Of a stretch of DNA of 64,000 bases, positions 7,357 through 56,536 are shown piece by piece. Under the pieces are notes generated by a model that was given only the letters and a program-made list of their open reading frames with translations, was not told the DNA's origin and made no database searches. Each line of letters starts with the position of its first letter. Position 1 is the first letter of the stretch. Source of the DNA: Chromera velia (lineage: Eukaryota > Sar > Chromeraceae). The stretch covers positions 30,252 through 94,251 of the forward strand of contig JAHBMJ010001206.1 of NCBI GenBank assembly GCA_018398765.1, read 5' to 3'. Position numbers and translations under genes: made by a program.

Positions 7357-10300
7357 CTAAAAGTGATGAACTCGAAATTTCCAAACCCCCTTCACAGGAT
7401 TGTAGTCCATGAACTCTGCTACGCCCTGCATGAAAACAAACGTACAGATCTGAATCCCGAAAGCCATTTGGGCAGGCTTGCTTCATTCCAGGGAAACATA
7501 CGCTGTGCACTTTCCTATGGAGCCTCTGTGTCCGGACAAAAACTGAGCGTGTGTGCCTGCAGTAAAAAGAGTCTTTGATTTCACTGTTGGTCGTCTGCTG
7601 ACCTTTTTCTTCTCCGTCATTGTCTGTATTTTCTTCTTGTACTTCTTCAATGCCTTTGTGTCAGACATGATTTCTGCAGAAGGCGGCCTGCAAATACAAA
7701 GACACGCAGAAATGAGAACACAGTGCTCCGCCTAAGAGTCTCCCATCGTTCGTGACAGCGTCTCTTCCTTAGCAGACGTCTCTGTAAACACTTTCTTTGA
7801 ACGTGTCGCAAGGGGGATATGAGGTTGCGGACTGGATGGCCGATCACACAAAAATGGGAATAGAATGAATCTGCCCATCAAATGAACCATCTTTCGAATA
7901 GAATGAATCTACCCATCAAATGAACCATCTTTCGAATGCAACCCACCAGCATTGGAAGAGGGTGATCTCTGCGCTCCGATTCAGACCCTGCAAACACACA
8001 TGCAAATTGGTTTCAGTATTGCGCTAAGCCGGCGGGAAAGTTTACTGGCATTTGAGATGCAGAGGAATTGAATTCTGGTTGAAGTCTTAAGATTACCCCC
8101 CCCCCCCCCCCCCAAAAAAAAAGGAGGACAAGAAAGAGAAGTTGTCTCACCAAGGTAACAAGGACTGGACGACAACCTACACTCAATTCCTACACTCAAA
8201 GTCACCACGCACTGGATCAAGGGAAGACCTTATTCAAAAAGAATGCAAAATCTTCACTCTGTCGCAGAGATTTGTCCCTAGTGCCATCCGAAAGATCCAT
8301 GCAGAGAATGCCGAGCCTCACGTACCTGTCCCACTGGAGGTTTTGAGGCTGCATCGGGATACACCAGCACCTCACCAACTTCCAGACGCACCACATCTCG
8401 GGGGTCGAATCCTCGGCAGTCTGGTTTCACTCACGCAACAGGGAAGATTGGGGGGAGGATTAAAGAATGAAGTGGCCAAAAAAATCACATGAAAAATCAA
8501 ATTTCCAGAGCAGGCGTTCAACTCACAAAAGCAACCAGATTCGAGGAAATAACGAGAGAGGAAAAGAGGGAAGAAAGGAAGAAAAAAAGAAATGACAACG
8601 CAAAAATGAGCAGAATGAAGAACCAGCCAAATGCAGATGGAAATCAATGCAGAAACGCATCCTGGGTTTTTTCCAAGGAACGTCATTTCAATTTCTGCAA
8701 TGGCTGCATACGTTCGGGACACAACGCCCCGCCTTTTTCTTCTTGAACTTAGCGTATGAGAGTCTCCTGTGCAATAAAGGAAATTTACAAAGAGACCTGC
8801 ATGCAGTCTCGTCACATGACCGACCCGTTACTCCTGGAAAAAAGATGTGCCCCACTCCCTTTCTGGCAACGATCAGATCCACAACCCTCGCCCTCTCTTC
8901 CTGCAAACATTTATGTACATGTGTTTGTCTATGTCTCGCGGTCTATATTGTGCATACACAGCATGATGTGCACATCATGATGAAGGGTACAGATGTGGAT
9001 AGTTAAAGACAGCCGGCGCATTGAAGGATTGTCAGAATACAAGTAGACATCACCTTCTTTTCAAATGGTGTATCTTGGAAAGTGGATCTCAATCCTGAAA
9101 GTCTCTATACCCCCCCTTTTTCTTTTTCTCTTCACATGCGCACCTCAGCTTCCCTGTCTGCTCCCGTGTTTTTTTGTTTGAAAAGACCTCCCTCAATTCT
9201 TTTCTACTCATTTTGACTCTTTTTCGTTCTGCGTTTTGTGTCTTCTGTCTTCCTTCACGCACCGGTGGCATTCGAGAGACGTCCGGAAGAACTGCGAGGT
9301 CTGCCTCCATCACGTCTGCGTCACGCTGCACTCATATGATTGATTGATTAATGCAGGCATCGATCCCGAATTTCACTGTGACCATAGAAGGCACGATTGC
9401 AACATTGTGCGCGAGAATCGTCACAGGGTTCCGCCTCCTCTCACAACGTTGCCCTGTATCTACGCAGCCTTCTGTGAACAGTTTTTTTCCGCATGACACA
9501 TTCAGAATGTAAAGCTGAAACGTCTGTGCCTGCCGGCTGCATCGCACTTCTTTCCAGCGGCAGAAAGGCGCGCCGAAGGAGAAAACGAAGATCATGGCAT
9601 GCTGACGAAAAAAGGATCGCCTGCAGGAGAGATATATGTCCAGAGACAAACAAAGGAGCGACTGCAGAAACGTTCGTCTGTGGCGAAAACAAGAGCGACA
9701 GCTACTAGGCAGCGCCTACCCACCTGAAATTTGCGGCACGCTTGAGGAAGCTCCATAGGCATACCGGTTCTGTAAGTACATTCATGAATTCATTCGATCA
9801 CGCATTCATTCATGCAGGCAGTCATTAATCTTCGAGGGCACATCGGCTCTGTATCCTGTCATGCAGTGTTCAAACACATGTCACAGACTGATCAATCACA
9901 TTGTGTGAGTGGTTTGGTCAACGGAAAGGTAGACGCGAAGACGACGGGGACATTCCGATGGCAGCCTCAAGTGTTCGCAAAAATACGATGGAAGAAGGCG
10001 AAAAAAAGAAAAGAAAAAAGGGGGGAAAGAAATGAGTGCGCAAGACACGCCAAGCCAACGCCTGGGACCAAAGGAACGATCCTCAGAGATCAAGCCTTGC
10101 TTGAGGTCGACAACCACGTACACTTCTCTCTGTGTACTTCCAGTTGGTGTGTGCAACCCCACTCTCACTGCTTGGCCGACTAGCTGACTGACTGACTTGA
10201 ACTTCTTCCTTTGCAAAAAGACCGCAAGGGCCCTGCACCAGACGGAGAAAGGGACCGCCTGTGGACACGCCGCCTGGAGACGACTTTCAGAGAGCTCCGG

Positions 10301-11003
10301 TGTATCCAGATACTTCTGCAGGCCGAGAGGGAAAAATCGCTGTATCTGGCGTTAAGGCTTCAAGTCATCTACCAGAAACAGCTCGACCTTCTGGTTATTC
10401 CAAAGACTCTTACAAAGAGAAGTACAGTGCCCAAGGAATAGCACCCGAGAGGGATAAGACGAGCAAAACCACAAGATGAGTACAAGCGGGTGTCTTCTGT
10501 GAAATCCCGACAGGTGTCACGCACGTTCTTATTCGAATGACGAGTTGGAAAGGGGTTTGCCCTCAGTTGTTTAAACATTAGTACGCACGTCACGTAAGTT
10601 CTTCGCCTCCTCAATGGAACAATTGTGTGCATGGAAAGATTATGAAATGAAAGACGCGGTGAGACATGTTCACATATGCTCTCCCCTGAGCAATTTGAGC
10701 TGACCCTGAGCAATTTGAACTGCTGGAGTCGAACAGAGTCAGGATGAAGCTTCGAAATTTTGGTCAAAGTGTCCGTCGCTGCAAATCCCTCAACCACCCA
10801 AACACATTACACTCCAACGCGCGCATGTAGACATACACACTCAATTCACAATGACACACTGACACACTGACATACTGATATACTGACACACACACACACA
10901 CACACTCACACACACTCACACGCACACACACACACACACGGACACACGGACACACGGACACACGGACACACGGACACACGGACACACACACACACACACA
11001 CAC

Positions 11004-11069
<66 letters not shown>

Positions 11070-11968
11070 TCTCGAGTTCTTTGTTGTCCTCTTCGTTGCT
11101 GTCGTGAATGAGACAGGGCGGAAAATAACCTTTCATATACAGAGGACACACGCACGCATTCCATGCACGTTTGTTTGTTTCTTCACTGCATGTGTACTGA
11201 CGCAACCAAGTGAGTGAAAGAAAAAAAGAAGTTTGACTTTTGGTAGTCGTGTCTTCCTCTTTCAATTGCAGGGCCTCACAACCTCAGCCACTTTTTCTAT
11301 ATGTTCTCGGAGTCTGCTAACCGAGGTCGATTCAATGAGCATCCTTGCACATTCACATGTGTGCACGACTGTCTGCATCTGTGTCGGATTTTGCAAACAT
11401 GGAAATTCCATCTTTTCCTTGTCATGCGTTCGTTCCTTTGTGACAATCTTCCACACACACTCCTTTGTGCTGCTGACCTCCGAGAAACTTCTTCACGCTC
11501 TGAGCGGAGAGGTCGGTCAGACCCAGAAGCATCGCAACGCATTCTAGGACCATCAAGGCGGCTGCAGAAGAAGAAAAGGAAAGGAAAGGAAGCCTCATCA
11601 AAGTGCCATTGTGAGAAAATGCAAAGGCCTCACGACGGATCAATCTCCAACAGAGGACGAGTCGACAACCGATCAACGGACACATCAGCCAATACGATGA
11701 TGAAGAAGAGCAGGAAGGAGTCTTGTCCATCTCTTCAAAATCCGACTTCTTTCTTCTTGCGTCCGGAATCAAAGTCACAAAAAAATTCAAATTCTGTGCT
11801 TCCCTTCTCTCCGGTCCTTCCTCCATCTGGGAAACAGACTCAGTCACTCACCAGCAGCATCGGTCTTCTTTCCCTCCTTCAGCTCTTTCAACCCAGCAGC
11901 ACTCATCTGCGAAACAGCCCACACCATCGCCTTCTCTGCAAGCGTCGCTTCCATCCGGGCCCTCCTCT

Positions 11969-12006
<38 letters not shown>

Positions 12007-12729
12007 GCACGCACGCACGCACACGCATGCAGACCAATGAAGACTTTGTACAAAAGCAATCATATACCGGCAGAAAAAAGAAGCCTGGGTGGAGACAGAA
12101 CTGTTGAAGGCGATCTCCCACACTCAGAGAGAAGAAGAGCTGCATTGATCAGCGGGATCGGCCCATTCTTTCCTCATTTCTCGTTTTCCTCCTTCCTTCC
12201 GTCCTTCCTTCTTTCCTTCCTTCCTTTGCTCATTTCTTCCGACAGAGAACACACGCCACAAAAGCATAGCGGGCCAAGATTGCTGTGTTGTTCTCTCTGT
12301 CTCTCTGCTCTCAGTCTGTCTATGAGAGCGCTGAAAGGATGGGGCATGCAGAGGGATACGCTTAGAGGAACTCCTTTAGGGGAACAAATTCCTTTCCTGA
12401 CCTCGGCAGCCATTCGGAGGCTTGTGGAGATTGCCCGTCTCTCCCCATTCTGCAAGGCGAAGAAAGAGGGAGGTGGTATAATTCCTCTTCTACTTCTGCG
12501 GTGGATTCCTGCCTCTGTTTTGTATTCCTATGGCAAACACGCACACACACACACACACACACGCACACACACGCACACACACGCGCACACACTCGCACAC
12601 ACTCACACACACTCACACACTGACACACTGACACACTCACACACTCACACACTCACACACTCACAGACTCACACACTCACAGACTCACAGACTCACAGAC
12701 TCACACACTCACACACTCACACACTCACG

Positions 12730-12764
<35 letters not shown>

Positions 12765-15700
12765 GCACATACCCCGAACGAAGAAAGCCACACGTGGAAT
12801 CGGCCGGCTGGAGCTGATTCCTCTGGTAACAAAATTGGTGGCTCGTTTCCGCCGTTTGTCATTTTGTATCGACCTCTATTTATCCTTCTTCGGACTTTCG
12901 GTTGTTTTCAGTCGAGAGTAAGAGACCAGCCAAGAAAGAAAGAAATCAAAAAAGGAGAGCGGGAAATAAAAAAAGGAAGAATGAGACAGCTGGAGATCAA
13001 AGAAGGAATATGAAGAGTTTGATTGAGAGACACCAGCGCAAACATCTGATGCGAAAAACCCAGTGAGGAAAAAGGCGTGTATGTTCATATTTGTGTGCGT
13101 GAAATCGTATGGAACCAACCTTTTGTGCCTGTATTGACACCGGACCGTTCCGTCCCCCCTCGTTCGTTTGTTTCCTTCCGGTCATGCGAGAAGAACCCTC
13201 CTGGTCCTCGTCCGTTTCCTCGACTGTGCTAAGGGGGGGGGGATTGGGGGCTACAAGGGGACTGTGGGGGCTCGGCCTCTCACCTAGAGAGGATACCCCG
13301 GCCCCTGTTGGGTCTACAGGGCCAGTCATGAGGCTGTCGGGGGTAAGTGTGGCATTTCCGTTGGTCAGAAGATCGGTCTGTTGCCTCCAGCCTCTTGAGC
13401 TTTCAAAGGACTGTGGAGACACTTCGGGAAGATTGAAGAAGATCGGACGGGGCGGGGGTGCAATCGAAATACTGTGCGTGTGCGTAAAGTCCCCTGATGA
13501 AGTGACTGTAATGTCTCCCACTCCCCAGGAGACGCCGCCTTGATTGGGGGGTCGGCCTGGTGACGGGGTGGGCGAAGGGGTGCGTGAGGATGTGAGGATT
13601 TGTATGGCCGGTGATCTTCCGGGAGAAAGTAGAGGCTGGTAGTTATAGGACCAGAGATCGTCGTTGAATGGATCAGGAACTCCTTCCGTCTGTTGCTGGA
13701 TGGTGGATGGAGACCGAAATGTGCTCATTGGAGTTCGTCTTGCTGTCTGCTGTTGTCTGTCTATGCTGTCCTCTTCAAAAAGAGGGGAACCTGACGCTGA
13801 TGGTGCAGACGGGGGAAGGGGGGGGTCTAGGAGGGCTGCAAATTGCTTGGAAATTGTTCTCAGGTCTCTGCTTTCATATGGAGATGGGGGTCGGTCTTTG
13901 AGCTCCTGCAAGGGCAAAGAGGGGGGGAGTGCTGAGAGAGAAGAACCAGCATGGGTTAAAAACCTCGACTCGATAGGAGAGATACGGTCAGGCGGGTATG
14001 GTGAAGAAGGGAAGAAAAAAAGCACAGGCGGGCAGAAAAACAGACGAAAGAGAAGACACACGAACAAACAAAGTATCTAACGGGATTGAAATCAGTCACG
14101 TGAACTGGCGAATCTAGATGATGACATGCGGCCGAAGATCCACATTAGTGAGATTTCGACACCAGTCAAAGATATTTGTTTCAAATCAGTCACAGGCAAA
14201 CCGTTTCCTCCCTGTCTTCCTTGAGGCTTTCTTTCAGAGCTCTGTCTCTCATTCGTTTTTCATTTTTCTTTTGGCCCTGTTGTTTTCTGCCGACCAACCA
14301 TTCGATGATCAATCAATTCGTTGTGCAGCAGTCCTACCGACAAAACGACTGACCGCTCTGGCAAGTTCGTGCTGCTCCTCGGGACTGAGGTCCCTTGGAG
14401 GGGACCCTGTCTTGGACTGTGCTGCAGTCTCATATGCAAACTCGCGGAATCTGCCCTCGAGACGCCTCTGCAGTCTCTCCTGCCTGTCCGCTGCCTGTCG
14501 CCTCAAGAAACTCTGCACACAGAGACAGTCACACACGCACACACAATGTGCAACGCTATGCAGTGACCTCGTCAAGCTGTCATTGCACGCAGATGTGTAT
14601 TTGCACTGTTAAACCGTTTTAACCATGCAATGTTTGAGACGAGGAAGACACACAGGCACAAACGACGGAGCAAAAAGAACGATGTTTACTGCCAATCAAC
14701 TTACTTCCTCTCACGGCGACCCCCCCTTCCCGTACGCAGCCGAAGGTTTTTCCTCTCTGCCACCCTGTAAGCCTATTGTTGGAGACATCGCATAGACGGC
14801 CCTGTATATAAATGTGTGTGTTCAATCGGTGCACCCGACCTGCTGTTCTGCTGCGAATGTTTTGACGTGCTGCAGCTCCTGCAGCTGTCTGTCAAGTTTT
14901 GAGTTCTGCTGTCTGAGTTCTGACATCCCGGAGTCGTCGCAGAGGTAAGGCTGCAATCAGGAGTGACAGACAGGACGCCAGGGAGCAAGAAGCAATCTCT
15001 TCGGAAAGACAGAAAGGCAGGCTCACCATCAGTGCCCCTGCTTCTCTGAAGAAAACAAGTATCAGAGGGCAATGGGAGACACGGACCAGAGGGGACGCTG
15101 TGGGCCAGAGCAGAATGAGAAGATTGAGCAGGCAAACAGACAGACGGAAAGAAAGCACGAAAGATACCAATTTTGGGATACAAAAGAAAGATTTTATGGC
15201 CAAAGAGAAACGACGGAGAAACAAATTTGTGCCTTCGAGCAACGTAAAATGAAGCAGAACAGCAGAAAAGATCCTGCTCACCCTCAGCGGTCTCTCTATG
15301 AAATGATGGCAAGACGAATCGGCCCCCAGATGCTTGAAGCTCTCTCCTCCGTCTGGAAGGCTGCTTGACGACCCCCCCCGTCCGCCCTCCCTGTGCTTCC
15401 CCGAGGAGGGCAAGAGAGACGGCAGATCCCTCGCCAAGTGCTCCCACTCCTTCCCCCGGTTCAACAATGCCCCCTGGACGCTATCAAGCTCTGCAGGTGC
15501 TGAGGGGTCAACAAGCAGAGTGTACAGGCTGGGGGGCACCACAAGGCCTCCTGCCAGGGAAGGGACAGGCGCAGGCGCAGGAAGCACGCCCAGGGAGCTT
15601 CTTGTCTGTTGCATGGGGGGCTGAAGGGACGTTGACGATCCGATTTGAGGAGAAAAGGGTGGCAGGAGCGGCGGGTGGGAGGAGGAAGAGACGAGAACGG

Positions 15701-16910
15701 CAGCAGGGGTGACAGGGGGAGGGGGGACGTGAAGGGAAGCGGGGCTTTGGGGGATTGCACCGACAGAGTTCACAGAGAGGAGGGAGGTGCCCCGAACATG
15801 ATGCTGATCGGGTCTCTGCAGCCATTCATCCATGCATGCACACAAACAGGCATGAACATACACACCCACAAAGAGAGAGAGAGAGAAGGGGTAATGATAT
15901 CTTCCGGAGAAAAGAAGAGAGAAAGGCTGCTTCCCCGGGCTTGTAGACTGAGAAGGAAAGGTTTGGAGGAGAAAAAGTAAAGTTGCTTTTGTGCAAATCA
16001 CTCCTCCTCATCAGTCCAAACCTCAAGAAAAACAGACGAATGCTGATGGAGGTGTGGCTTGCTTGACCGCCTCAATGCGGCAATACCTATCTCTCTCTAT
16101 GCCTCTCCTATGAAAAAGGTCCGCGGTGATTTCCTGTCTTCTGCCATTAGACATCTAGACAGACCAAGAAGGATACAGAAGCAAACTGACAATGGACGGG
16201 TTTTGGGCGTTGCTCTCTCTTCGTGGATGCGCCTCCCCTGACGCTCCTCCCTCACCTCCACCCTCACCCTCCTGCTGCTGCTGCTGGGGAACGACCACGA
16301 CTGATCCTCGAGCAGTGGCTGCACTTTGTATGGAGGTCCGGTGGAATGCAGCAGAGGGAAGAGGAGCAGGTGGAGGAGGGATCACGGTGAGGGACGGGGA
16401 AGGCGATTGTCTCGTGAGTCTGTGAGTCGCTGCTTGCGAGATGGCACTGCCCCTCTTCGGTTCAACCACAGAGGGCTGGACAGTGACAGGGGCGATGAAG
16501 CTTGGAAGGGAGTGTGCAAGGATGTTTGGAGACGTTTGAGTTTGCGTGAGCCGTCTGTGTGTAACAAGCGGGTGTTGAGGCGGAGGAAGGAGGACTGGAT
16601 GTCTTGGTGGTGGCACGAAATTCACGTGCTGGACAGAGGAGGGCGCTGGACGTTGTGTAGGTGCAGGGCTGCTTCTGTTCACCTGCAGAGGCATAGAAGT
16701 CTGAATGGTTTGGTGGGAAGTCCGATCTTTTAGTGCTGGCGTGGTTGTTTGTTGTTGCCCAGGTTGGAGGTAATAGTGTTGTCTGACGGAAGGCTGGAGA
16801 GGAAGGGGAGAGAACGAAGGAGCAGGAAGGGTCCGAAGAGGGGAAACCGCCTGAGCCTGAACAGCTCTCGATCGGGGCCCCGGAGCGATGTTGGTCCGCT
16901 TCTCCTGCAT
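7357..16910 (-). CDS. Dynein-type microtubule-binding domain plus NUP98 autoproteolytic domain protein
   Basis: Seventeen exons, 3225 nt (1074 aa), are phase-consistent throughout: 16191-16910, 15282-15815, 14840-14950, 14354-14512, 13120-13905, 12402-12449, 11852-11966, 11478-11561, 10705-10778, 10197-10315, 9724-9769, 9263-9325, 8825-8900, 8326-8420, 7947-7987, 7603-7687, 7357-7425. Residues 1-420 and 509-770 are Pro/Ser/Gln-rich, and 420-508 is a coiled coil. Residues about 795-915 match the dynein stalk head: [37 protein letters not shown] and [11 protein letters not shown] fall in the order and spacing known from dynein heavy chains. Residues about 935-1074 match the NUP98 C-terminal domain: [43 protein letters not shown] and [15 protein letters not shown], then stop. 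No FG repeats and no AAA+ modules are seen. If the two halves were separate genes, the break would lie near 9800-10200. The ATG at 16910 is the simplest start. Confidence 0.68.
10889..11070. repeat. CA, GGACACAC and GA microsatellite
   Basis: A CA run passes into an 8-bp unit (GGACACAC) repeated about six times and then a long GA run. It lies inside an intron of the dynein-type/NUP98 gene. Other CA arrays in the same gene's introns lie at about 11971-12025 and 12538-12765. Confidence 0.9.
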
Positions 16911-17540
16911 GGTATATATCATGAGCAAACATACACACAGAAGAGGCAATGATGCAAGCATGCAAACAACAGTTTACAGCTAACTGCACCGACCTCGGAA
17001 AGCAGGGCAGCTGGGGTCGGGACACGGCACAGATACGCATTGGATGCGCTGCTGTCGACTAAGGCAGGGTTCCAGCAAGATATCATATCGTCTACTTCAG
17101 TCGTTTCACCCCATCAACACTCTCAGGTGTACACAGATCGATCAGTCTGGGCGCACACTGAATCTCCATGCATGGACATGCCTAAGGAATGGGTGAAGCG
17201 TTCCTCATTTTGTAAATGGGCTTTGCGGATCCCGTCTACACACTTCCCCACGGTGTCTGTGGACATTGCGTTGTTCAATTGAGAGTCTCAATCCTGCGTG
17301 TGTAGATGTACATCTATGCACTTTCTGACACGTATATGTACGTACGGCATATATGCAAAAGTGCCGCCAGTCGCGCGCAAACTTTCGCGCACATGCATGC
17401 ACGCTTTTGTAAGCAATCGACCGCATCGTTGACTTGGAGGACAATTAAAATCCCCAAATCGCGATAAATCTCCTCTTCTCTCTCCTAGAGTCTTCCTTTT
17501 GTACGTTTTTCTACCATGTCGTTGAAGCCCCAAGTGATAA
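16911..17540. promoter_or_regulatory. Upstream region of the NUP98-domain gene
   Basis: No convincing ORF. It contains TGCATGC words (about 16955-16965 and 17390-17400), a GCGCGC patch near 17370-17395 and several TATATG words. This resembles the other upstream regions here but is weaker in CpG. A 5' leader exon ending near 16994 is possible. Confidence 0.3.
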
Positions 17541-18469: not shown

Positions 18470-19061
18470 TCACTTCTCTTTGTTGACATAGACAGTAAAC
18501 GACTTCGGCATGTTTGGTACTTTGTAGATGCACGGTCGGATATCGACGCTTCTCTTCGTTGCAGGGTTGAAGAGTTCAGACTCGCACGTTCCGCACTGTC
18601 CGTTGGTGCACTTGTACTTGCACGGGACTCCCACCTCCTCCATAATGTCCTTCAGGGACTCTCCCGGCTCGGCATCCACTGCTACATTCTTCGGTTGAAA
18701 GGTGATTTCGACAGTTGATGCCCTCAAAGAGGAGAGCTGCGGAGCAGGAGAGAAAGAACGGTCAGAAGAATGCAGTTTTACAGCCTGTCTGTGTGGCAGT
18801 AAGGTGCAACACAGGCACGCATAGATGGATGGAAGAAATAATGCACGTGTCGCCTTCTGGGTACATGAAAAGATTGATAGGAGGCAGGAGCTACAGCGAG
18901 ACACGTCTCTCTGAGACAGAAAGGGAAATGGCGAGATCCGTTGGCTGCATTCGCCACGAGAGAGAAGAAAGGTTCAGTTTCTGGCTCCCTCAACAACTGC
19001 AATCTGGATTTCGAAAACAGAGACAAAACAGCAGGGGGAAAAGCAGGAAGGAAGGAAGGAA

Positions 19062-35860: not shown

Positions 35861-36923
35861 CCCGCCTTTCGTCCACACAGTACAATCTCAGCGTACAGAA
35901 GCAGGGCCTTAGAAGAGACCAATCTCGTCTGCTGACGAAGAAGGCAAACAGATGTTTACTTTTAGCGAATACGACACGAAAACGGAATAGTTAATGTTCC
36001 GCAAAGTTCTGCGTTTTTTTCATGAGTGGATCCCCTCTTCAGAAGGACTCAGCACCTGTTCTAAGCACAGAAAGCCACCCGACTCAGGAACATTCGATCG
36101 ACACAACGCGAAAGACCTACTTGATCTGACAAGTATGACAGTGACATGCAAGGAAACGCAGTTGCGCATATCTTTCCTCACCGACGCTCGAAACGACGCG
36201 GCAGCACAAATGCGCTTGCTCTGCGCTTGCCACATCGGTCGTACAGTTACTCTGAGGGAGTCTAGTCGTACATAGACGGATTGGTCTGTTGTGAAATGTT
36301 GTGAATCGCAGTGATATTAATATTAATATATCTCTGCGATTCTGTGGGACACAATGTCATACAGTCAGCTGGACTGATCGACAACAGCTAGCGATCGATC
36401 CGCGCCTGTTAAGCCATATGTGGCCGGGGCCTGCATGTGACCGCGCGGCGGCCGCGCGCCGCGCGTGCATGGCCCCGCGGAGGCCGGGCCGGCCTCCTCT
36501 GCCTATATCGATATATCCGCAGCGTCAGTGTTGCATGCGCACAGCTTTAATCGAAGTGTTGCGCAATTAACCAATTAATGTTGCAAGTGTTGCACATACA
36601 GAAACTTCAATGCATGCATATGCAGTCACGTATACCTGACTGCTTGGGTATCTTAAAAGTTGAATGTGTCCACGAGCTTTCTGAGAGAAAAACACATGCC
36701 TCAGAAAGGAGTGTCGGTCCGATCAAAAGAGGGCAGAGGCTCAGTTTTGGATGCTGGACTATCTGATGTGTGTGGAGCGCGTCGACTGTTTGCATGCCGT
36801 TCTCGACGTGTTGGGGTAAATCGGTGCGAAAGGCGTAGGCGCGGCTTTGAACGTGAACATTGAAAGCATGTCCACCTCGAGGACTGCCAGTGGAATTTTG
36901 CAGTTGCACACCTTTGCATCCTT
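35861..36923. promoter_or_regulatory. Divergent promoter region, MRS2-like / MscS-like
   Basis: CpG-rich core at about 36438-36500 made of CCGCGCGG- and GCGCGC-type sequence. It is flanked by repeated TGTTGCA and TGCATGCA words (36525-36620) and GATCGAT words (36378-36400). Layout and words match the region at 2826-4219. No coding frame is supported in it. Confidence 0.5.
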
Positions 36924-38183
36924 TTGGATGCCCTTCTTCTACTTTCTTCTATGGCTCTGCGCACTGTCAGACATGTGCAGACAGTGTGGAGGGACCTCTA
37001 CTCAGCCGGGCTTCTTGCACACTCGCGGACGTCTCAGGAACTCTCGCACTGCGCCGCTTTCTCGAAGGCGGGTGCATTCACCCCTACTCTTGCCTGTCAG
37101 TCCTTCATCTCTTTGCAGAGTCTAAGGTCTCCTTTCGGTCTTCCTCAGAGAAAGTTTCCATTGCTGAGAAAGTTCTTGCGTTCTGACGTTTCGCACCGCA
37201 ACCTACTTGTCCATGATGCGCCTTTGCTTCTTCTTCCCACGGGGACAGCAGTGGTCAAGGCTCTGTACAGATGTGGGTGTTCGACCAATACCTCCCGCTT
37301 CCTGCCTTGCTGCGACATCCACGTGTCTCCTTCCTGCAAGTACAATTTAAGGGGTACAAAAGTCCCCTTGAATAGACGAACGTCAGTCCTCTTTCAGTCA
37401 CAGCGGACCTCCATTCCGTCTCTGCAGAAGCAGAAAGCCTTCGCAGTGGTCTTGTCTTCTTCTCAAGGCCAAGAGAGAAGCGAGGAAGATGGACCTGCCG
37501 AGCCAGGCGCCAACGGTAGAGCGGAAGAGGAAGAGCAAGTAGCAGAGGCACAGCGCGATGCGTGGAACTCGTTCAGTGAGGAAGAGGGGGCGTTGTCATC
37601 TTCTTCGCCATCTAACGAGACCCTTAGTGGGCAGGTGAAGCTGGAAGGAGAAGCATCGACTCCCGGCTTGCTCCAAGAGGGTTCATCCTTTTCGAGAAAC
37701 GCGTTTTTTCTGCGTTCCTCTTTCAAAAAAATGTTTTTCTTCGTCCCCTTTTTTGACTTTCTCCTTGCAACGACAGGATTGGTGACAGACAGAGACACAC
37801 GTCGGTTCCTTGCGTGGGCAATTTCATGGAAGGCATACGTTTCGTTGCTTATCTGGGTGCTGCACAAGCTGGGGTTTGATAAGAATCACTTGTGGACTGG
37901 GTTTGGAGTTTCTGGACTCCTTGCTGCGTTTGCATGTCAGGAGGTTTTGACAAATATGTTGAGTGGGAACCTCCTTCAGTGCCTTGTAGGGGAAGACGTG
38001 ATAATCAAACAAGGAGGTCACGACTATCGAGGGCATGTAGAAGCAATCAACACGAGGACTTTGAAGCTCATTACGCCTGATGGTCTCATCATTCTTCTTC
38101 CCTGTGCTCTTGTATGTTCAAGTCCGATTGTCATTTTGAAGAAAAAAGAAGCAGAAAAACGCCATCCAGGCGCTTCCAGCTGA
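36924..38183 (+). CDS. MscS-like mechanosensitive channel, 419 aa
   Basis: Single open exon. The C-terminal part carries the MscS core. A pore-lining-type helix from about residue 323 contains LWTGFGVSGLLAAFACQEV and LTNMLSGN, followed by the beta domain with GEDVIIKQGG, GHVEAINTRTLKL, DGLIILLPC and SSPIVILKK. This is the order and spacing of MscS (helix TM3, then the Sm-like domain). Two further hydrophobic helices precede it at about residues 273-290 and 297-315. About 270 N-terminal residues are Ser/Arg-rich with an acidic stretch, as in organelle-targeted relatives. The large C-terminal vestibule of bacterial MscS is missing. Start: ATG 36924, with a second in-frame ATG at 36951. A hydrophobic leader (MPFFYFLLWLC) is open in another frame here, so an unrecognised 5' intron is possible. 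Confidence 0.72.
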   Translation: MDALLLLSSMALRTVRHVQTVWRDLYSAGLLAHSRTSQELSHCAAFSKAGAFTPTLACQSFISLQSLRSPFGLPQRKFPLLRKFLRSDVSHRNLLVHDAPLLLLPTGTAVVKALYRCGCSTNTSRFLPCCDIHVSPSCKYNLRGTKVPLNRRTSVLFQSQRTSIPSLQKQKAFAVVLSSSQGQERSEEDGPAEPGANGRAEEEEQVAEAQRDAWNSFSEEEGALSSSSPSNETLSGQVKLEGEASTPGLLQEGSSFSRNAFFLRSSFKKMFFFVPFFDFLLATTGLVTDRDTRRFLAWAISWKAYVSLLIWVLHKLGFDKNHLWTGFGVSGLLAAFACQEVLTNMLSGNLLQCLVGEDVIIKQGGHDYRGHVEAINTRTLKLITPDGLIILLPCALVCSSPIVILKKKEAEKRHPGASS

Positions 38184-38329: not shown

Positions 38330-41300
38330 TGTAAGCTGTTTTACTGGAGTCTTAGTACTATCAGATACAGATCGTTAAAATCTGACAGACACCGGTTGGT
38401 TTGGTCTAACAGTTAATGTCAATCTCGAGCATTCTTAGTGATGACGTCAAGCAGACACGTCAAGCATGCACTTCACCAAAATCACTTAATGAAAGCATGC
38501 CCGACTTCACGATGCGCGACCTCGTAATACACCCATGCACGCTATGTGGCCCGGGTCCCCCGTCCGGCCCACATCTGCCTGATGCTTGCCAGCCCTTTAT
38601 TACTCAGTCTTCTTATTAGGTGGAATGCCCCTCACACTTGCCCGCCTTTTAAGCCAATGTCCACGCTTGGCTCTGAAGACTGATATATTAATCATGTATC
38701 CATCGAGCGATCGGACAATCAATTCTCATGCCTATCTATCTTTTCATCAAGCGCCTATCTAGCATGCCCTCGAACGATCGAGTCATCATCATACATTGTT
38801 TCTCACCTTATGCCTTTCCTCCCTCATACTGCCCGTCTGTCATTTTTCTTTCCTTTTGAAATCAGCGATCCTTTCTTTTGCTTTCTTAAGATTCTTCGCT
38901 GGCTTCCACAAAGCATCCTTCACTCCAAACCCTTTTCATTTAACTAAATAATGCTGCTTCCCTGAAATTCTCTTGCTGTCCAAAATTTTATCTACCTTGT
39001 ATTCAGGGCCCTCGAACCTTGGAAGTCTAACTACAGGTGGAGGGTCACCCGGCTCTCTCACATACTTCTTCAGATAGTTCATATTCACCATAGAATGAAT
39101 GCGAACTCCTGCCGGAAAGATCAACTCATATACTTCCCGTGTGATTGCCCTCTTTACCTTAAAAGGACCAAACCACACAGGCTCAAGCTTCCTCTTTACT
39201 CCCTCTGGCCTTCTTTTTTATTCGAAAAATTCTCTATGCACCAATACCCAATCTCCTGAACCCAATTCCAGTTCCGTATGATAACGATCATAATAGCGAG
39301 CTACCGTCTCCCTTGCTCACTCCAGGCACTCCTTCGCTTGTGCCATCTCTGCCCTGTGTCGTGTAGCGAAGTCAGCTGCTGCCAGAGACAGCAAACTTCC
39401 CCGAACAGGCACTGCAGGCAGTCAGATTGGATCAAAGCTATGCACAAATCTAAATGGTGAGAGACCTGTCACTAGATGTACACTGTTTCTATATGCAAAC
39501 TGACATGCCGGCAAAGCCTCGGCCCAGTCTTCCTGATGGTCCATCACGAAACACCTCAACATCTCCCTGATCGTTCTGTTGTCTCTCTCTGTCTGTTCGT
39601 CTGTCTGTGGGTGTCTGGAAGAGCTCATCTTGATTTTTGATTTCCAGAATCTTTGCAATTCTTGCCAAAATGCAGAGATGAAGCGAGGATCGCGATCAGA
39701 GAGAAGAGAACGAAACATACCGACCGAGCACACCACTCTCTCGAATACAATCGATGCTGTCTCTTCTCCCGTAATCTCTTCCCACACCGGGATGAAAAAT
39801 ACATCCTTTGACAAACGATCAACAACAGAGAGAATTCCATCCACAATTCTTCCCCAGTACAACGTTCTCGGCAGACCAAACAGGAAGTCGAGAGAAAGAG
39901 ATTCATATGGACACTCAGAGATAGGCAAAAGATTGAGCAGACCAGGTCTTTTCTGGGTGGAATGTTTTGCTCTCTGACAGGCATCACACCAAGCCACATA
40001 CTTCTTGACTGATAAATATATGTTGAGCCAGTAGAACTTACTGTTCAGCTTGAAAAATGTCTTTTCTGGCCCCAGATGTCCTCCAACCACCGTGTCATGA
40101 TGCTCAGAGATCATCTGCCTCTGCAGAATATCAGTCGGAATGGCCAATCTGTCTTTGAAATAAAGAAAGCCATCAACAAGAGTGAATGGTTGAATTCTTA
40201 TTCTTAAGTGTCGAGGCACAGGCACCTCTGGATGCTTCAATACTTCGATGAGCTCCTGAAAGAATCTTTTTTTTTTGTATCCTCCTTTCACTTCCTTCAA
40301 GAACTCTTCATTCACATCCACTCTCATCTCAATGCCTGCCAATAGTCTTTTCGCTTCCTTTTCTTCTTCCTTTCTCTTTTCAGTCTTTTCTTCCACTCCC
40401 TGCTTTTGCTCAGTTCTCACAGGCTTTCTGCTCAATACATCTGCCACCCAATTTTTACTTCCAGGCACGTATCGAGGCGTGATACCTATCTGGTCCGACA
40501 ACAAAACCCAACGACGCATGCGAGAAGACATTTACATTCGATCGGCAGTCGACATGACTGTCTTCAAACTTTTATGATCACTCCATACCTGGGTCGTACA
40601 CGAAACGTACGGATGCCAGATCTTGACTGCGAACACATAAGCAAGGAACTCCTTGTCTCTGATGTGGTAGTTCTTCTCTGCTGGGCTCATTATTCTCGAA
40701 GCAAATGCACACGGCCAAAGGATCCCGACATGTGGATCCTTCTACATGAGCACAGCAGCAACAGTCGCAGTCTTTTCACATGCATCAGCAAAACTTTTGA
40801 ATGGACAAGTAGGATCAGGAATGTACAATTCAGTCACCTGCTTAACTGCTTCTTTGACTGCCTCAAAACTCGCCTGCTGCTCTTCTTTCTACTCAAACTT
40901 CACCGTCTTTTTCAGCAAGCGATAAAGAGGCGCAGCCTTCTTGCTGAATTCAAACACAAAACGTCTCACCCAAGAAGCCAAACCAAGAAAAGAATGCAAC
41001 TCACTCACATTCTTGGGCATTGGCCAGTTTTCTATCTTTTCTATTTTCTTTGTCTCTGGCCTCACTCCTTTCTCTGAGATCCTCAGCACCAAGAATGTTA
41101 CCTCTCTTTGAAAAAAATGACACTTCGACAACTTTGTAAACAGATTTGCCTATTTGAGGAGAAAAAGAACATAAGAGACATGCCGTTCATGCTCCTCTCT
41201 CGTCTTTGAATAAATTAGAATATCATCCAAAAATACAGATACATACCGATCAAGGCACTCCCTCAACATATAGTGAATCAATCGTATGGCTGCCGGGGGG

Positions 41301-44300
41301 GCATTCGTTCATCCAAAAGAGACCACCAGCCATTCATAATTCCCATACCTCGTCGTAAAGGCTGTTTTGGGCATGTCTTTCTCTCTTATTCTCATCTGAT
41401 GGTAGTACCGTGAAAAATTTTACCCTATACAGCCTATCGATCAAATCTTGAGGATGAGGCAATGGATGCTTGTCCTTCACTGTGATTCTATTTAATTCCG
41501 TATAGTCACAACACATCCTCTGAGTCATTGTCCCATCCTTCTTTGCCACAAACAAAACTGGTGCTGCAAAATGAGAACAAGACGGTCGAATGAATCCTTG
41601 CTTCAAATATATATCAACTTGCTTCCTCAATTCATCCAGCTCACCCAAAGAGAGACGATAGGGTGGGCAAGCTGGAGGCGGGTGTCCTGGTTCGAGATCT
41701 ATCTTGAAGTCAAGTCCTTCCCCCCACGACGGCGGCAACCCTGTCAAGGAATCGGGAAAGAGAGATGCATTGTCTGCCACAATTGTCTTCATGTCGATCA
41801 GCACGGTCGATTTCTTCAGGTACTCACGGACCTCAGTCAATTTAGGCGAAGAGAGAACAGGATGATCAGAAGGAAGAGAAGAGAGAAAATCATCATTCAT
41901 TGCCTCACTACCCCTAAGTCCCTTTCCATTCTCCCCAGCATTCTTTCTCCCCCCGTCTTCACTGACTTCATGCAATCTCTGAACCCTGCAGGCAACCCCA
42001 GTGGACTCACCAAAAGGGATTTTTGTCTGCAGTCTAACTAGATGGCAGATAGCTCCTTTCTGGATCGCCCGCTTTGCCTGCATAGAAGAGAGAAGAAGAG
42101 GAGTGCTGAATGTTTATTCCTCGTCCTCTTCCTCCAACTCCACATCTGGAACCCAATAAATCAATTTCCCTCTGAACTAAAAACGTAGACTTTGAGACGA
42201 CCACTGCAGTTCAGGCTTATAGGCATGACCCCACTTTGTCCCTAAGATCAAATCATACTCATCCACGTCGGCTGACATTGCACCCACTGTCTCTTGATAC
42301 CCCTGAATGTTGATTGGCACTGTGGGTGCACACTCACAGACCGACCGAGTCTTCGAGGATTTGAGGGCACCGTGTAAGTTGACGGGTCGTCTCAATCTGC
42401 ACACATGGAGATGGTGGGCATGAGCAAAATGATAGTCAAGATAAATATCATCTACACCTGAATCAACCAAAACTCTGACAGGTACACCAGTCACTCGACC
42501 TAAAAACATAAACAACCCCGGACGGACCCCTATTTCATTTTCCTTCTCCTTCATTTTCATTGGCACATCTTCATTCTTAGGGCTTCCTCCCATCTCGGGG
42601 CACTGACCACAAGTTTTGAGTCCCTCTGCTCCTATCACCTCATCCGTCTCGAAACCTCTGTAGATCGTTCGAACTCCCCTACCTGCCAGCTTTGTTCTAC
42701 CTCTTCCTCTCCCTCTGGGACCACCGTCTCTACGTCCCCCTCTTCACTGTGACTAGCCCAGAGGTGGCCATGCTTGGGCAGTCAGGAATGGAGCTCTAAA
42801 CCCTCTGCGATCTCCTTGGTATCCGCCTCTGCCCTGCCCCCATCCCCCCTGCCTGAAGTCTTCACGGAATCTCCCGTAGTCCTGCGAGTCCCAAGGGTTC
42901 CCTCCGCCAGTGAGTCTCCACATTCCAGAGAAGTTTCCACCGAGTCCAGAGAAGGGACTTGGACACTACTTAGCAGTATACCCTGTGAGGCGGCATCTGA
43001 AACACCTTCCCTCTGCAATACAGAGAGACCTCTCTGCCGGTGTGAGTGGTGGTGGGAGTTGACGGACCCCACACAGGTCCATGGGGACGGGCCCTTCCTC
43101 TTATCTCAATGGAGAGTTGCGTCAGGCACTCTCCCCACCACTCTCAAAGGCACTCAGCCTTTGGAAGTCTTGTGTCCCGCCTCGCGGTCCTTCTCCACCA
43201 GAGAGAAAGACCTCAAGCTTGCTTGCCGTCTTCATGGCAATAACCAAGTTGACCGAATGCGCCTTATTTATTTCAAGGCGGACATCTGCTGGCAAACCAG
43301 AGATGTAGTCTTCAACGATGTCTTTCTTGATCAACTGGCCCTTCAGTTTCGCGACAAGCGGCTTGAATCGCTTGTTGTAGTCGTCGACCCCAGCTCCAGT
43401 GCATCGGCACTTCTTCAGGTCCTTTTTGGCCTTCTGTCTGGCCAGTGTGTCTGAATAGTGCTCGATGAGGGCAACCTTCAACAACTCCCAGTTCTGGAAT
43501 GGTCTGTTCTCGACCTCATAGAGATCAAACCATTCCTTGAGGTCCTGGGACATTCTGTTCTTTGCCACCAGTACCTTGTCCAGGTCCAACACTTTCTTAA
43601 GTTTGTAGAAGTCTTCTACGTCTTTCAACCACCTGGTCAGCTTGGCCGTCACTCCAGAGAACAGAGCAGGGGCCTCGCACAGCTTCATGTAGTACGACGA
43701 GGACGCAGTTATACTTTGGGCTGGCACAATGGCAGGTGATGTTACCGTTACCTAGACAGATTCCTGAGACTCTGAGGCTTGAGAAACAAGTAATTGCAGA
43801 GTTTCTCCATGCAGGTTTTGCGTCGCCTGCATAGAGTCGATCCGCTGAGACAATGCTTCAATGGCCCCGACAATCTGCAGAATCCCCGGAGCTAGTACAT
43901 CCTCTGTCACACCTTCCATCGACGTATGGAGTCGACAGTTAGTAGACTGAACCAGTCTGAGTACATTGAATTCAACAAGAGCGTTCTCCCTTAACTGAGG
44001 GTGGAACGAGGCTCTAAACTACCAGATGTAAGCTGTTTTACTGGAGTTTTAGTACTATCAGATACAGATGGTTAAAGTCTGACAGATATCGGTTGGTTTG
44101 GTCTAACAGTTAATGTCAATCTCGAGCATTCTTAGTGATGACGTCAAGCAGACACGTCAAGCATGCACTTCACCAAAATCACTTAATGAAAGCATGCTCA
44201 ACTTCACGATGTGCGACCTCGTAATACACCTATGCACGCTATATGGCCCGGGTCCCCTGTCCGGCCCACATCTGCCTGACGCTTGCCAGCCCTTTATTAC

Positions 44301-46293: not shown

Positions 46294-48531
46294 AGTGGGA
46301 CAGCGAAGAGAGAAACAGTGACACAGACAGGGAGTGAAACAAAACGAGAGAGACATTGGAACATACACACCAACGAGGGAATAGATTTAGGTGGAATCAC
46401 GTCAGAAAAGTCTCGTAGGGTGCCCGACATAAGAAACTCCAGGCCCCCCACCTCAAACCCGAAACATGAATTGGAAATTCTCCGAACCGACCTGCCATCG
46501 TGCATCACGGCTGTTCCCACTTTGTGTGCGTAAGTAAGGACCCTCTCCTCCTCCCCCGGAGGGTCGATCTGTGCTGAGCCATCGTCGTTCTCTTCGTCTT
46601 TTTTTGGCGAAGCCACAGCCCTCCCCCGCCTCCCCTTCGGAAGAAAAAATCCGACAGTCGACCCCTGGAGGTCGTCGGATGCATGGACGCACAGATTGAT
46701 CGTCACCGCACTTCTGCAGGCACGCAAGGAGGAAGGAAAGCACAGTGAGGGGCTTGACGTCATCTTCAGGGATCCATAAATAAAAGAGAAACGGGTACAC
46801 ACAAAGGAGACAATCACCCAAGAAATGATAAAAAGGCAGAACCGGAGCCTTGGGTAAGTGGGAAGTCCAACCGCTTGACCTTGAGAGACCTCAAAACGCC
46901 AAATTCTTGCAGGACTAACTGAATCTTCTGGCAAACGTGAGAGAGAGAGCTCATGAATTCGTTCATTCTGTAGCGACGAGACGACCGAATGGAGTACAGC
47001 TAGGTATTTGCGAGACGTTCACTCAGCATGCCGAATTGTGTCTGTGGATTTGTGTCCCGCTGAGGAGACTCCGACATCCTTCCTATCTGTCGGCCTCTTC
47101 TAGTCTTCCTTGATTCTTGCTCTACCTCACTGTTCTTCAATCTGTCTTCATGCAGTACTGCACTTTGCTCTTTCAACCTGAAAGGAAATGTTCTTTCTCT
47201 CAATGAATGCCCTTTCAACTACATGTAGAGAGGGAAGCTGACCTGTCACAGTGCACTTTGAACTTTGCGTTCTCTTCCCTCCCCACGAAGTTGCGAGTCA
47301 AGAACGCGTGATACACTCTGCATGGGGGTCTGCCTGCTTTCTCTGCCGCTCTGTTCGCTCCTTTCTCGACAGCCTCGAGAAGTGGCAGGAAGCCGCAATC
47401 CTGTAAGTTGCCTAGATTGCCGTCGTGCCGTTCGTGAAGAGGAAGACCTAAGTCTGGGTGGTCTCTCACAAACTTCTCGTAATGATGAATCTCCTCCCAA
47501 ACAGCTTTGCAAAATGCAGAATTGGCAAGGGGAAACGCAAACACCCCGTCTGAAATCTCAGCAGGAGACTGTGCGGACTCATTTTCAGTACTACTCTCTG
47601 TGTCTGTCTTGAACATTGCAGCACAGACCTCAGTCGGATCGTACAGAAAAGAATGTCGGGGCGCGTAGTGCTGTTCAAGTAAAGAAAGTCCCTTCAGTCG
47701 GAGCTCTTGCTTTCTTGCCGTCTCTGCCTTCAGTACTCGAGACCTCAAAATTTTGTTCCGGGTAATGGACGCCGTCTTGGCCTCCTCGGCTCCCGGTATC
47801 ATCCCATTGACCTCCTTCTCCCCCTCGTCTATTCCTAGATGAGCACACAGAAGCAACGCAGTTGCCAAAAGTTCTTTTCTCTTGACGCTCTCAACTGCCA
47901 ACGAGGCCATCTCGTCGGCTAACACCTGCAAAGGAGCGCGCCCAAAACTGTCGGGTGCTTCGGCCCAGGCTTGGCATCTAGTGTCTTGGAGGAAGAGCTC
48001 CACGATGGGGGCGTGGCCGTTGCAGGCGGCAAGGAGGAGGGGGCTTCTCCCTCCAGCCTCAAAGTGCGGAAGTGCCTGACCGAGGGCGATTTTGAAGTCT
48101 TTGGTCCTCATTTGCTCAGCCTCTTCTTTGGAGAAAGGACTTTGCAGAAGGTGTTTTAGACACGCCTCGTACCCCTGCTCGGGACAGTGGAAGAGAGGAC
48201 CGTCACCGTGGGGCGCAGGGTGGCGGTACATGGGATTCGCTCCCATATGGATCAATTTTGCAACAGCGATGGGAAGGTTACTCACGCAGGCAATGTACAA
48301 AGGCGAGCCCATGCACTCTGCTTTCTCAGTTGAGAGCGAGGATGAAGATCCTTGCTGGGGCTTTGGAGAAGCCGCATAGAATTCTTTGTCAATGATGTTG
48401 CATGGAGACGGTGCTCGAGCCACTTCTCCGGAAAAGGGGGGGAAAAGGAAATCCTGGAGGACTGAGGAATCAGGGGCTTCTTCCTGATCGTTCAGGACAG
48501 ATAGAAGATCACCCAGTTGAGAGCTGGACAT
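45893..48531 (-). CDS. Ankyrin-repeat 2OG-Fe(II) oxygenase, 569 aa
   Basis: Three exons, 47243-48531, 46492-46713 and 45893-46091, with agreeing phases (1289+222+199 nt). Residues about 75-105 (GSPLYIACVSN, KLIHMGANP) and 161-205 (GRSPLLLAACNGHAPIVELF) are ankyrin repeats. A coiled or charged linker follows. Residues about 345-525 form a prolyl-4-hydroxylase-like double-stranded beta-helix: FPLANSAFCKAVWEEIHHYE, the helix-side LPLHERHDGNLG, and the iron ligands H427-x-D429 in VHCDR and H507 in WHKTDP. R517 in GSRGSLIVWARL sits where the 2-oxoglutarate-binding arginine is expected. TINLCV and GTAVMHDG are the usual strands. The fold is that of PKHD/procollagen-lysyl-type hydroxylases acting on protein side chains; the substrate is unknown. 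There is no signal peptide, so cytosolic or nuclear. It lies divergent from AP4S1. Confidence 0.82.
46258..46292. repeat. CA microsatellite
   Basis: CA run inside the second intron of the ankyrin-oxygenase gene. Confidence 0.95.
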
Positions 48532-49320
48532 CTTGGACGGGTCCTAAGGGAAACGTGGAGGTCTGTGCCAGGATACGGTGCAAAATTCTCTGTAAAAGTA
48601 TCTTCAGCTGCGCTTCTGGCTGAGCACACCTTCGCCGACGCGCAACGAAGGTAGATGAAGACCTGGAACAATGCAGCTGGTAGACATTGTACTGCAACAT
48701 TGTTAATTGTCACAAATCAGTGGGAATCACTGTTTCTCCACTTCAATGTGTGACGAGAAAAGGTCAGTCAAAATGACCACAACATTTTTTTGTGCGCGCG
48801 GGTGTCGCCGCCTTCTCATATAGCTGGGCGCCGCCCGCGGGGGCCGGGGCCGCGCACGCCGCCTGCATGGCCGCACCGTCGACCCTGCATGCATGCTCCG
48901 CCGCCGTCTCCAGATGTCTCCAGGCTTTCAGGCTGAGTTTCAGCCTTGAAAGTCTCGATCTGACAGGATGTCTCGATCACATACAGAGTGACTTCAATGA
49001 ACTTCGCGATCGTCGTCGAATCAATTGACTGTCAGGGAGGAAAGACCTTGCAGCCTCGAATGGAGCAGTTGGAGCAGCTCCCTTCACTGACTTCTGTCCA
49101 GCCCTCGAGATACTTTGCCAATTGACCGTTTGTTACACTTAAGTTCACGAAGCTCAAGGTCTCGCTGTCGAACGCTGACCGCCGTGGGCGGCTTCTTTTG
49201 ACCCATAGTCCGTGTCAAGAAATCTAGAGAACCGACTCCTAGATAAATTGACTCTTCCGGGGAACGGCTGGGCAAGCCGGAGTTTTCTTAAAGAGAAAAG
49301 AAGAGGAGGGTCCGAACAGG
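48532..49320. promoter_or_regulatory. Divergent promoter region, ankyrin oxygenase / AP4S1
   Basis: 789 bases between two divergent start codons. A CpG-rich core lies at about 48790-48880, with TGCATGCATGC at about 48885-48895, TGCAACATTG near 48690-48705 and GCGATCGTCG near 49005. Composition and words match the other divergent regions here. No TATA box is evident. Confidence 0.5.
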
Positions 49321-50246
49321 ATGATCAAGTTCATTCTGATGGTCAACAAGCAGGGCCAGACCCGGTTGAGCCAGTACTACGACTACCTTTCTATCCCAGA
49401 GAGGAACCAGCTGGAGGGGGAGCTGATCAGGAAATGCCTCTCTAGATCAGAAAATCAGGTCAGGGCGGCACAGCAACGGGTCGGAAGGAGAGACAGTGGA
49501 TCGTTTCTTTTCTACAGGTCTTTGAATTCAAACGAAACTACCAGAAGCATTGGCGTGCATGTGTGTGTGCCTGGATGCGAGGGTGCGTGTGTGTGCGTGT
49601 GTGTGTGTGTGGGAGAGAGAGAGTTCGACTTTTTGTTGGGAAGGAGGGGAGGGGGTTGCCAGTTTCTGTGGATCTGCAAGCTTTCTTGTTCGGAAAGAGC
49701 AAGGGATCTGCAAGGGTTTCCGCCCCCCTTCTTGCCTGCTTGCACGCAGTGTTCGTTCATGGAGTACAGGCAGTACAAGGTCATCTACCGGCGCTACGCC
49801 TCTCTCTACTTTATCGTGGGCACCGACAATGAGGATGAGGTGGGCCCCTGTGCCTTTTTTCGTATTATGGTTGTGTCCCCTGCCTCGTTATGCGCACTGA
49901 CAAAAGAGACACGGTGGGAAGCTTTGTGAAGGAAACCCAGTCAAATGAATGAATGGAGAAGCAAGTAAATAAGTAGATGCATGAATGGATGGATGGATGG
50001 ATTAAATGAATGAGCAAGTAAGAGGGTGAATGCATGAGTGGCGTGGGAGTAAATGAGTGCATGAATGAAAGAACGAGTAAGTAAGAATGAATGAGCAAGC
50101 AAGTGACTGAATGAAAAAATGAACGAGCGAGCAGGTAAGTGAATAAATAGTTGAATAAACAAATGGATGCCTGCCCCATGAATGAATGAATGAGTGAATG
50201 AACGAACGAACGAAAGGAAAGAAAGAAAGAACGAACGAACGAACGA

Positions 50247-54185: not shown

Positions 54186-54950
54186 TTACACTCCGGGGGC
54201 CTCCTCCATCTCCTCACCCCCCTCTTCCTCCTCTCCGGAATCCTCCTCTTCCCCTTCCCCCTCGCCCCCATTGTCTTGCTTCTTCTTCTTCTTCTTGTTC
54301 TCGACAGGGTCGGGGTTCGTCCACACGTCCTCGATGTTCACCGTGAGCCTTGCCGTCTTGGCGTCCACCTTTTTCAACAACTGCGCAGCCTGAGGGGTCA
54401 GTGTCTCTCCCACCCGGCACACCGTGATGTCCTCCAGGAGGTGGATCTTCCCGCTCTCCACTGCGACAGGGAGTCCCAGCTCTCTGAACTTGTTCTCCTC
54501 TGAGGCCGGCCACTTTAGGAAAACTTCCGGGCCTTTCTTCAGCGTCACAGTCGATAGTGCAGTTGTGCCCGGCTTTGCATGACAGGCGGGTGTGTATCCA
54601 TCGAAGCGTCTTCTGACTTGAGGGTCAGAAAGGTCTGTGAAAAGAAGGGCCTTTTCGAATTTGAGTTGCTTGGAGATGCGAGAAACGCCCTCCTTCAACT
54701 CATCCTCGGCACTCTTGCCGAGTGCGACTTGCTGGAGTTTGTTGTTTCCGTAGACCAGGGCTGAACCCCTCATATGCGAACGCAGTCCGAAAAGGAAAGT
54801 ATTGTTACAGTTTTCCATGCTCAGAAGGTACGTGTACTTGTGCTGTGTGCATGCGTCTCGGGTCTTTTTGATTATTTTGTCGTTCCTGCTAAGGCCCTTC
54901 ATGACCTTGCAGCCTGGCACCCTGAAGGGTCGTTTCGACTTGGGCGGCAT
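54186..54950 (-). CDS. MRTO4: Ribosome assembly factor MRT4 (P0-like), 254 aa
   Basis: Single exon. I start it at ATG 54950 (MPPKSKRPFR), since the 33 residues open upstream are hydrophobic and unlike the family, whose members begin MPKSKR. Family landmarks in order: YTYLLSMENCNNTFLFGLR, SALVYGNNKLQQVALGKS, ALLFTDL, RFDGYTPACHAKPGTTALSTV, LGLPVAVESGKIHLLEDITV, LTPQAAQLLKKVDAKTARL and VNIEDVW. MRT4 is the nuclear paralogue of ribosomal stalk protein P0. It occupies the P0 site on pre-60S particles in the nucleolus until late maturation. A lysine run and a long Glu/Gly-rich acidic tail (about residues 212-254) close it; acidic tails are common in this family. It is divergent from PMS2 and convergent with AP4S1. 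Confidence 0.9.
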   Translation of the reverse strand: MPPKSKRPFRVPGCKVMKGLSRNDKIIKKTRDACTQHKYTYLLSMENCNNTFLFGLRSHMRGSALVYGNNKLQQVALGKSAEDELKEGVSRISKQLKFEKALLFTDLSDPQVRRRFDGYTPACHAKPGTTALSTVTLKKGPEVFLKWPASEENKFRELGLPVAVESGKIHLLEDITVCRVGETLTPQAAQLLKKVDAKTARLTVNIEDVWTNPDPVENKKKKKKQDNGGEGEGEEEDSGEEEEGGEEMEEAPGV

Positions 54951-55948: not shown

Positions 55949-56536
55949 ATGGCGGGAACGGCATCTGCCATCAACCGCATTTCTGCGGATGTGATTCACC
56001 AGATTTGCAGCAATCAGGTGGTGGTGGACTTAAAGACCTGCATCAAGGAGCTTGTGGAGAACAGCCTCGACGCACATGCAACGAATATCGGTCGGTAGGG
56101 CGGCCTGGCACGCTGAGTGAGGACGAGGCATCGCTACTTCTCCAAGTTTCCGCCTCTCTATGAAAATGTCCGTGTGTTCCTTCTTCAGCAATCTACGTGC
56201 CGCCTGGTGACGCCACTATTGCTTGCTTGCAGAAGTTCGGCTTGTCGAGCACGGCATCGAGTCGATCGAGGTGCGGGACAACGGGTCCGGCATAGCGAAA
56301 ACCGACTTCGAGTGCATCAGTCAGTCCATCAAGGAAGCAAGTTGACTGGCAGCCTGTCATGACAGGGAGAGAGAGGAATAGAAAAAGAAAGAGGGGGGNN
56401 NNNNNNNNNNNNNNNNNNNNNNNNNNNNNNNNNNNNNNNNNNNNNNNNNNNNNNNNNNNNNNNNNNNNNNNNNNNNNNNNNNNNNNNNNGGGGGAAGAGG
56501 GAGAGGGTCGAAGAGGGGGGGAAGGAGAGAGGGAGA

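Follow-up and report, generated by a model that had tools for sequence, protein, structure and literature searches.

Results

A predicted 18-exon gene and its neighbours

The window, that is, the whole 64,000-nucleotide stretch of Chromera velia DNA analysed here, carries on its minus strand a continuous reading frame from 17086 to 7357, which comprises 18 exons separated by GT-AG introns and encodes about 1,103 amino acids. The predicted gene begins with an ATG at 17086, a predicted start of our choosing, and closes with a terminal TAG ending at 7357. The whole predicted coding sequence (7357..17086, minus strand) follows from frame continuity and GT-AG introns, with close alternatives at the borders of exons 11 to 13. 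An earlier note, made from the letters of this DNA alone, had counted 17 exons with all phases agreeing across 7357-12449. The frame is indeed continuous, although only 12 exons lie inside that interval and six more lead upstream to the ATG at 17086; the count of 17 had probably included upstream exons. The two peptides quoted in that note, one from a dynein stalk head and one from a NUP98 domain, are both present in consecutive GT-AG exons on the minus strand.

In an alternative model of this gene (1,109 aa), the introns measured 89-699 nt. Its borders for exons 11-13 were rejected, as they relied on the weakest donor among the 17 (at 0.2 bits) and on an acceptor that ranked among the two weakest. 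A micro-exon at 15045-15027, which broke the frame in the full model, was dropped. Codon usage, scored after training on 3,163 codons, discriminated poorly between exons and introns, with exons 2, 3 and 6 near zero, and no support was drawn from it. The sole run of Ns in the window (56399-56489) is distant from the gene, and a mis-join of the contig at the gene is unlikely.

The next gene upstream is represented by the end of a 2Fe-2S ferredoxin-type gene on the minus strand (approximately 18481-18720; PF00111 Fer2, E=7.5e-9). Also on the minus strand, an ORF at 54186-55142 contains a ribosomal L10P insertion domain (E=2.1e-17) together with an L10 domain and is presumably of the MRT4 type, and another at 47215-48543 contains ankyrin repeats and an OGFOD2-like domain (E=2e-7, barely over the cut-off). 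Minus-strand ORFs at 39422-43751 resemble, by eye, gag and pol pieces of an LTR retroelement. On the plus strand, a clathrin-adaptor small chain (PF01217, E=2.5e-7) has its first exon at 49252-49460, and a long low-complexity repeat tract lies just downstream of that exon. Two other plus-strand resemblances were noted by eye: ORFs at 59952-63718 resemble the C-terminal portion of a repair protein of the MutL/PMS2 type, interrupted by a long charged insert, and an ORF at 36864-38183 resembles an MscS-type channel. Neither a 74-aa piece of the former nor a 110-aa piece of the latter gave a Pfam match.

A Nup98 domain ending at His-Phe

Exons 13-18 (9325-9263, 8900-8825, 8420-8326, 7987-7947, 7687-7603 and 7425-7357; together 7357..9325, minus strand) encode a Nup98 autopeptidase domain at residues ~962-1103. 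Pfam assigned the last ~140 amino acids to Nucleoporin2 (PF04096) with E=4.6e-30 and 105.1 bits against a cut-off of 28.4, over profile positions 12-143 of 148, and reported no other family for the whole protein at E<=1. When the domain was searched against the PDB, 23 of the 25 sequences at E<=1 were Nup98, Nup145 or Nup116, the best at E=5e-22; the remaining two were SPT20 (E about 0.4). With both the PF04096 profile and the PDB matches in agreement, the NUP98 autoproteolytic domain proposed earlier is unambiguous.

Nup98-Nup96 precursors are cut after His-Phe. Here the stop codon comes directly after His-His-Phe, so that neither the Ser or Thr of a cleavage site nor any other residue follows His-Phe, and there is therefore no cleavage to perform. 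It is also through this domain that Nup98 is held at the pore. In an alignment with the PDB Nup98 domains, three residues are missing after Trp-Pro, near a lysine that we take to be a Nup88 contact of human Nup98, and this gap counts against easy docking. Profiles for Nup88 and Nup96 found no match in this genome and likewise none in any control genome, and hence do not bear on docking.

A PF04096 search of the same genome revealed four other places at E<=0.001. Two of them (contigs C3310 and C793) are of the FG-repeat type and end at His-Phe; a third (C167) has FG repeats and reads on past His-Phe with Thr-Lys-Tyr-Gly; the fourth (C220) contains a Nup98-type domain that is incomplete in the stretch read. 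The gene studied here was absent from these matches, probably because of its short exons. In a translated search, its product was 34-41% identical to those of C3310, C167 and C793 over 69-80 residues. For a single alga, having several paralogues of Nup98 seems unusual.

A dynein-like stalk head upstream of the Nup98 domain

Exons 7-11 (12449-12402, 11966-11852, 11561-11478, 10778-10705 and 10315-10197; together 10197..12449, minus strand) encode residues ~800-945, in which similarity searches identified a CC1-like first stalk strand and a dynein microtubule-binding domain (MTBD)-like domain. With a 171-aa query from the 1,109-aa model (exons 7-12), phmmer returned eight PDB sequences at E<=10. 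Five carried the name dynein heavy chain, the best at E=1.9e-5, and DNAH6 accounted for three of the five; two were chains of 4,191 and 4,625 residues named AAA+ ATPase domain-containing protein, and one was a designed retroaldolase (E=0.26). Of the eight, the first seven aligned where the MTBD of a dynein from the same genome aligns too. A 154-aa query from the final model gave six PDB matches at E<=10, all at dynein stalk heads and all among those seven (best E=1.4e-5, three DNAH6). In a tblastn-type search of the own genome at E<=10, the sole match outside the contig carrying the gene (C1205) and the Nup98 genes was a dynein on contig C3589 (E=0.0023).

A profile was built from six dynein MTBDs of the same genome, one of them partial. 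It scored the 171-aa segment at 36.2 bits and a 140-aa core at 36.8 bits, and the match spanned profile positions 17-128 of 152, which is nearly the whole head. The best of 5,000 shuffles of the core (4,736 reported) reached 11.4 bits against the real 36.8, ruling out a signal from generic helix or composition. Among 556 six-frame ORFs of the window, the highest score with this profile was 5.0 bits, from an ORF that holds exon 9 of the same gene. Comparison with five own-genome dyneins by hhalign gave 96.7% and E=4e-10. The nearest of the own dynein stretches compared was that on C3589, at 27.0 bits, with the next at 20.7 bits. As C3589 is nearest and DNAH6 makes up the top three of its PDB matches, we infer that the MTBD-like domain derives from the DNAH6 class.

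The domain is also divergent. The Pfam stalk model PF12777 did not report the region at E<=1 or at E<=10. Only four of the 17 positions invariant in five own-genome dyneins are kept, the hallmark prolines flanking the head (Pro-Pro in CC1, Pro in CC2) are lost, with Thr, Asp and Ser in their place in the alignment, and at most a short second stalk strand is present. Given the four of 17 positions and the lost prolines, microtubule binding cannot be assumed. These same features, together with the blindness of PF12777 to the region, would suit a real fusion whose MTBD-like part, either a relic or a helical bundle put to another use, no longer binds microtubules and serves as a spacer or a module for protein binding in a structural nucleoporin without FG repeats. 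However, similarity over nearly the whole head would be unexpected for a useless relic, and we regard this reading as rather unlikely.

The earlier note had called the region a dynein stalk domain and had named profile searches against the stalk and Nucleoporin2 families as a check. Nucleoporin2 was found, whereas the PF12777 stalk was missed, which by the note's own rule counts against the claim. The dynein assignment is thus upheld by phmmer, the tblastn-type match, the own-genome profile and hhalign, but not by PF12777 or by conservation of the invariant positions and prolines. In our weighing, the more specific dynein comparisons outweigh the missing PF12777 match and point to a dynein-type head.

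Neither FG repeats nor a dynein motor accompany the two domains

The N-terminal region, about 800 residues delimited by translation and composition, is encoded by exons 1-6 (17086-16994, 16904-16191, 15815-15282, 14950-14840, 14512-14354 and 13905-13120; together 13120..17086, minus strand). Pro, Ser, Leu and Gln are abundant in it, and a short, charged helical segment lies around residues 450-535. No FG dipeptide occurs in the model's first 800 residues, which thus lack the FG or GLFG repeats found upstream in FG nucleoporins. Likewise, the AAA_9 motor had no match on the contig carrying the gene, in contrast to a dynein heavy chain with its AAA+ ring. The earlier statement that the usual partner contexts of both domains are missing therefore agrees with what we found.

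In the own genome, a PF12777 profile search gave 29 matches on 14 contigs. AAA_9 was also present on 13 of these 14 stalk contigs, and the remaining stalk (on C1340) lies at a contig end; a search with this family would overlook other orphan MTBDs that are equally divergent, and hence the result does not imply that the present one is unique. The AAA_9 matches on contigs C1651 and C2261 are identical in score (169.1 bits) and length, reflecting either a dynein that duplicated recently or a copy left uncollapsed in the assembly.

The nearest dyneins being of the axonemal DNAH6 type, a fused microtubule binder might act at the flagellar base or axoneme rather than at the nuclear envelope. The ciliary work cited in this connection, to judge by its title, concerns a diffusion barrier, and the first 800 residues here are free of FG; we consider a flagellar role very unlikely.

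The junction between the two domains

Splice matrices were built from the gene's other 15 introns, and the in-frame paths through exons 11-13 were enumerated. The best path ends exon 11 at 10197, takes 9769-9724 as exon 12 and starts exon 13 at 9325 (28.4 bits); the runner-up scored 27.9 bits, 0.5 lower. In the best path the two domains are joined by the 46-nt linker exon 12 (9724..9769, minus strand), whose splice-matrix scores are 8.0 and 7.3. The junction 10197/9769, on which the earlier proposal of a fusion turned, thus belongs to the top-scoring in-frame path among those enumerated. Exon 11 donors are modest, with 4.2 bits for the one used in this path.

The same DNA could instead hold two neighbouring genes: one encoding the N-terminus and the MTBD-like domain and ending near 9896, the other encoding a small protein that consists of the Nup98 domain only and starts at an ATG in exon 13. 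Indeed, the frame of exon 11 is open as far as 9896, exon 13 has an in-frame ATG just before the Nup98 domain, and an equally good link was possible in 14 of 197 unrelated stretches of the window (3 of 200 were dropped for N). On the other hand, just 2 of 200 dinucleotide shuffles reached the linking score, and the gap between the domains is intron-like and no longer than the introns inside the MTBD. To our knowledge, a protein made of the Nup98 domain alone would also be unusual. For a direct join without exon 12, the score was reached in 7 of 200 shuffles and 17 of 197 stretches. We judge two separate genes to be unlikely and a single gene quite likely. Hence, of the dynein-NUP98 fusion claimed earlier, the identities and the order of the domains stand; the fusion itself is the better model, resting on moderately strong evidence from splice sites and reading frame.

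Discussion

As read from the sequence, a dynein MTBD-like domain and a Nup98 domain follow one another in this order along an in-frame splice path, on a contig free of a motor match and behind 800 residues free of FG. We conclude that this is a real and unusual domain combination, probably encoded by one gene, for which a tethering function is a good hypothesis and not a result.

The explanation we put forward, tentatively and at a little under even confidence, is that one gene codes for a Nup98 paralogue that lacks FG repeats, bears a grafted dynein head and links pores or the nuclear envelope to microtubules. Such a paralogue would need no self-cleavage. A dynein MTBD, closest to those of DNAH6-type inner-arm dyneins, would have been captured without its motor and placed directly upstream of the Nup98 autopeptidase domain, and the 800-residue N-terminus ahead of it would probably be disordered. 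If one transcript covers both domains, the C-terminal domain would, like that of Nup98, dock on a subcomplex of the nuclear pore, and the MTBD-like head, separated from it by some 30-45 residues, could touch microtubules. Through these two contacts the protein would link pores or the nuclear envelope to microtubules, a tether role that is possible for a protein of this predicted architecture. The broader proposition, that a chromerid-type alga made a dedicated pore-microtubule linker by grafting a DNAH6-type dynein tip onto a Nup98 anchor, and thereby a covalent connection between pore and spindle, is more speculative, and we hold it as a conjecture that may well prove wrong.

If true, the tether would name a candidate link between pores and microtubules in a relative of the Plasmodium lineage and make the question testable; in related parasites, a connection between pore and spindle has so far been suggested by microscopy. 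It would also represent the use of a dynein MTBD without a motor and of a Nup98 domain as a pure anchor without FG repeats. During the closed mitosis of Plasmodium, pores cluster as rosettes around the microtubule-organising centre (the centriolar plaque), and the available part of a review terms this clustering a potential functional connection (PMC12306155).

In the openly licensed literature, we found neither a study of Nup98 or nucleoporins in Chromera velia nor a fusion of a dynein MTBD with Nup98, which agrees, for openly licensed papers, with the earlier assertion that no such fusion has been described. The Chromera genome was annotated with Augustus, according to the portion of the report available (PMC4501334), so that the locus may already have a gene model.

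Several known systems share parts of this architecture. Compared with Nup98 and Nup98-Nup96, including yeast Nup145N and Nup116 (autopeptidase S59, PF04096), the C-terminal domain matches and the His-Phe at which the precursors are cut is common to both; in contrast, the predicted protein has no FG in its first 800 residues, a dynein-type domain instead, and nothing after His-Phe. The stop after His-Phe is shared by the FG-type products of C3310 and C793 in the same genome, whereas the FG-type product of C167 reads on. Compared with the stalk head of DNAH6-class dynein, there is similarity over the head, and CC1-like residues precede it; however, there is no motor on the contig and no long second stalk strand, and the hallmark prolines are gone.

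We know of no dynein-type domain involved in the spindle role of vertebrate Nup98. Vertebrate Nup98 has been reported, in the part of the paper available, to bind microtubules and MCAK (PMC3864359); it is likewise a Nup98-family protein with a reported microtubule role, whereas here a dynein-type domain lies within the chain itself. In the neighbouring apicomplexans, the relatives of Nup98/Nup100 are Toxoplasma Nup302 and Plasmodium Nup221, which the accessible text describes as FG nucleoporins, with loss of the cleavage motif reported for the Plasmodium Nup98-type protein (PMC6062611). Whereas these are of the FG type, with no dynein-type domain mentioned in that portion of the source, the predicted Chromera protein is FG-less in its first 800 residues and carries a dynein-type domain.
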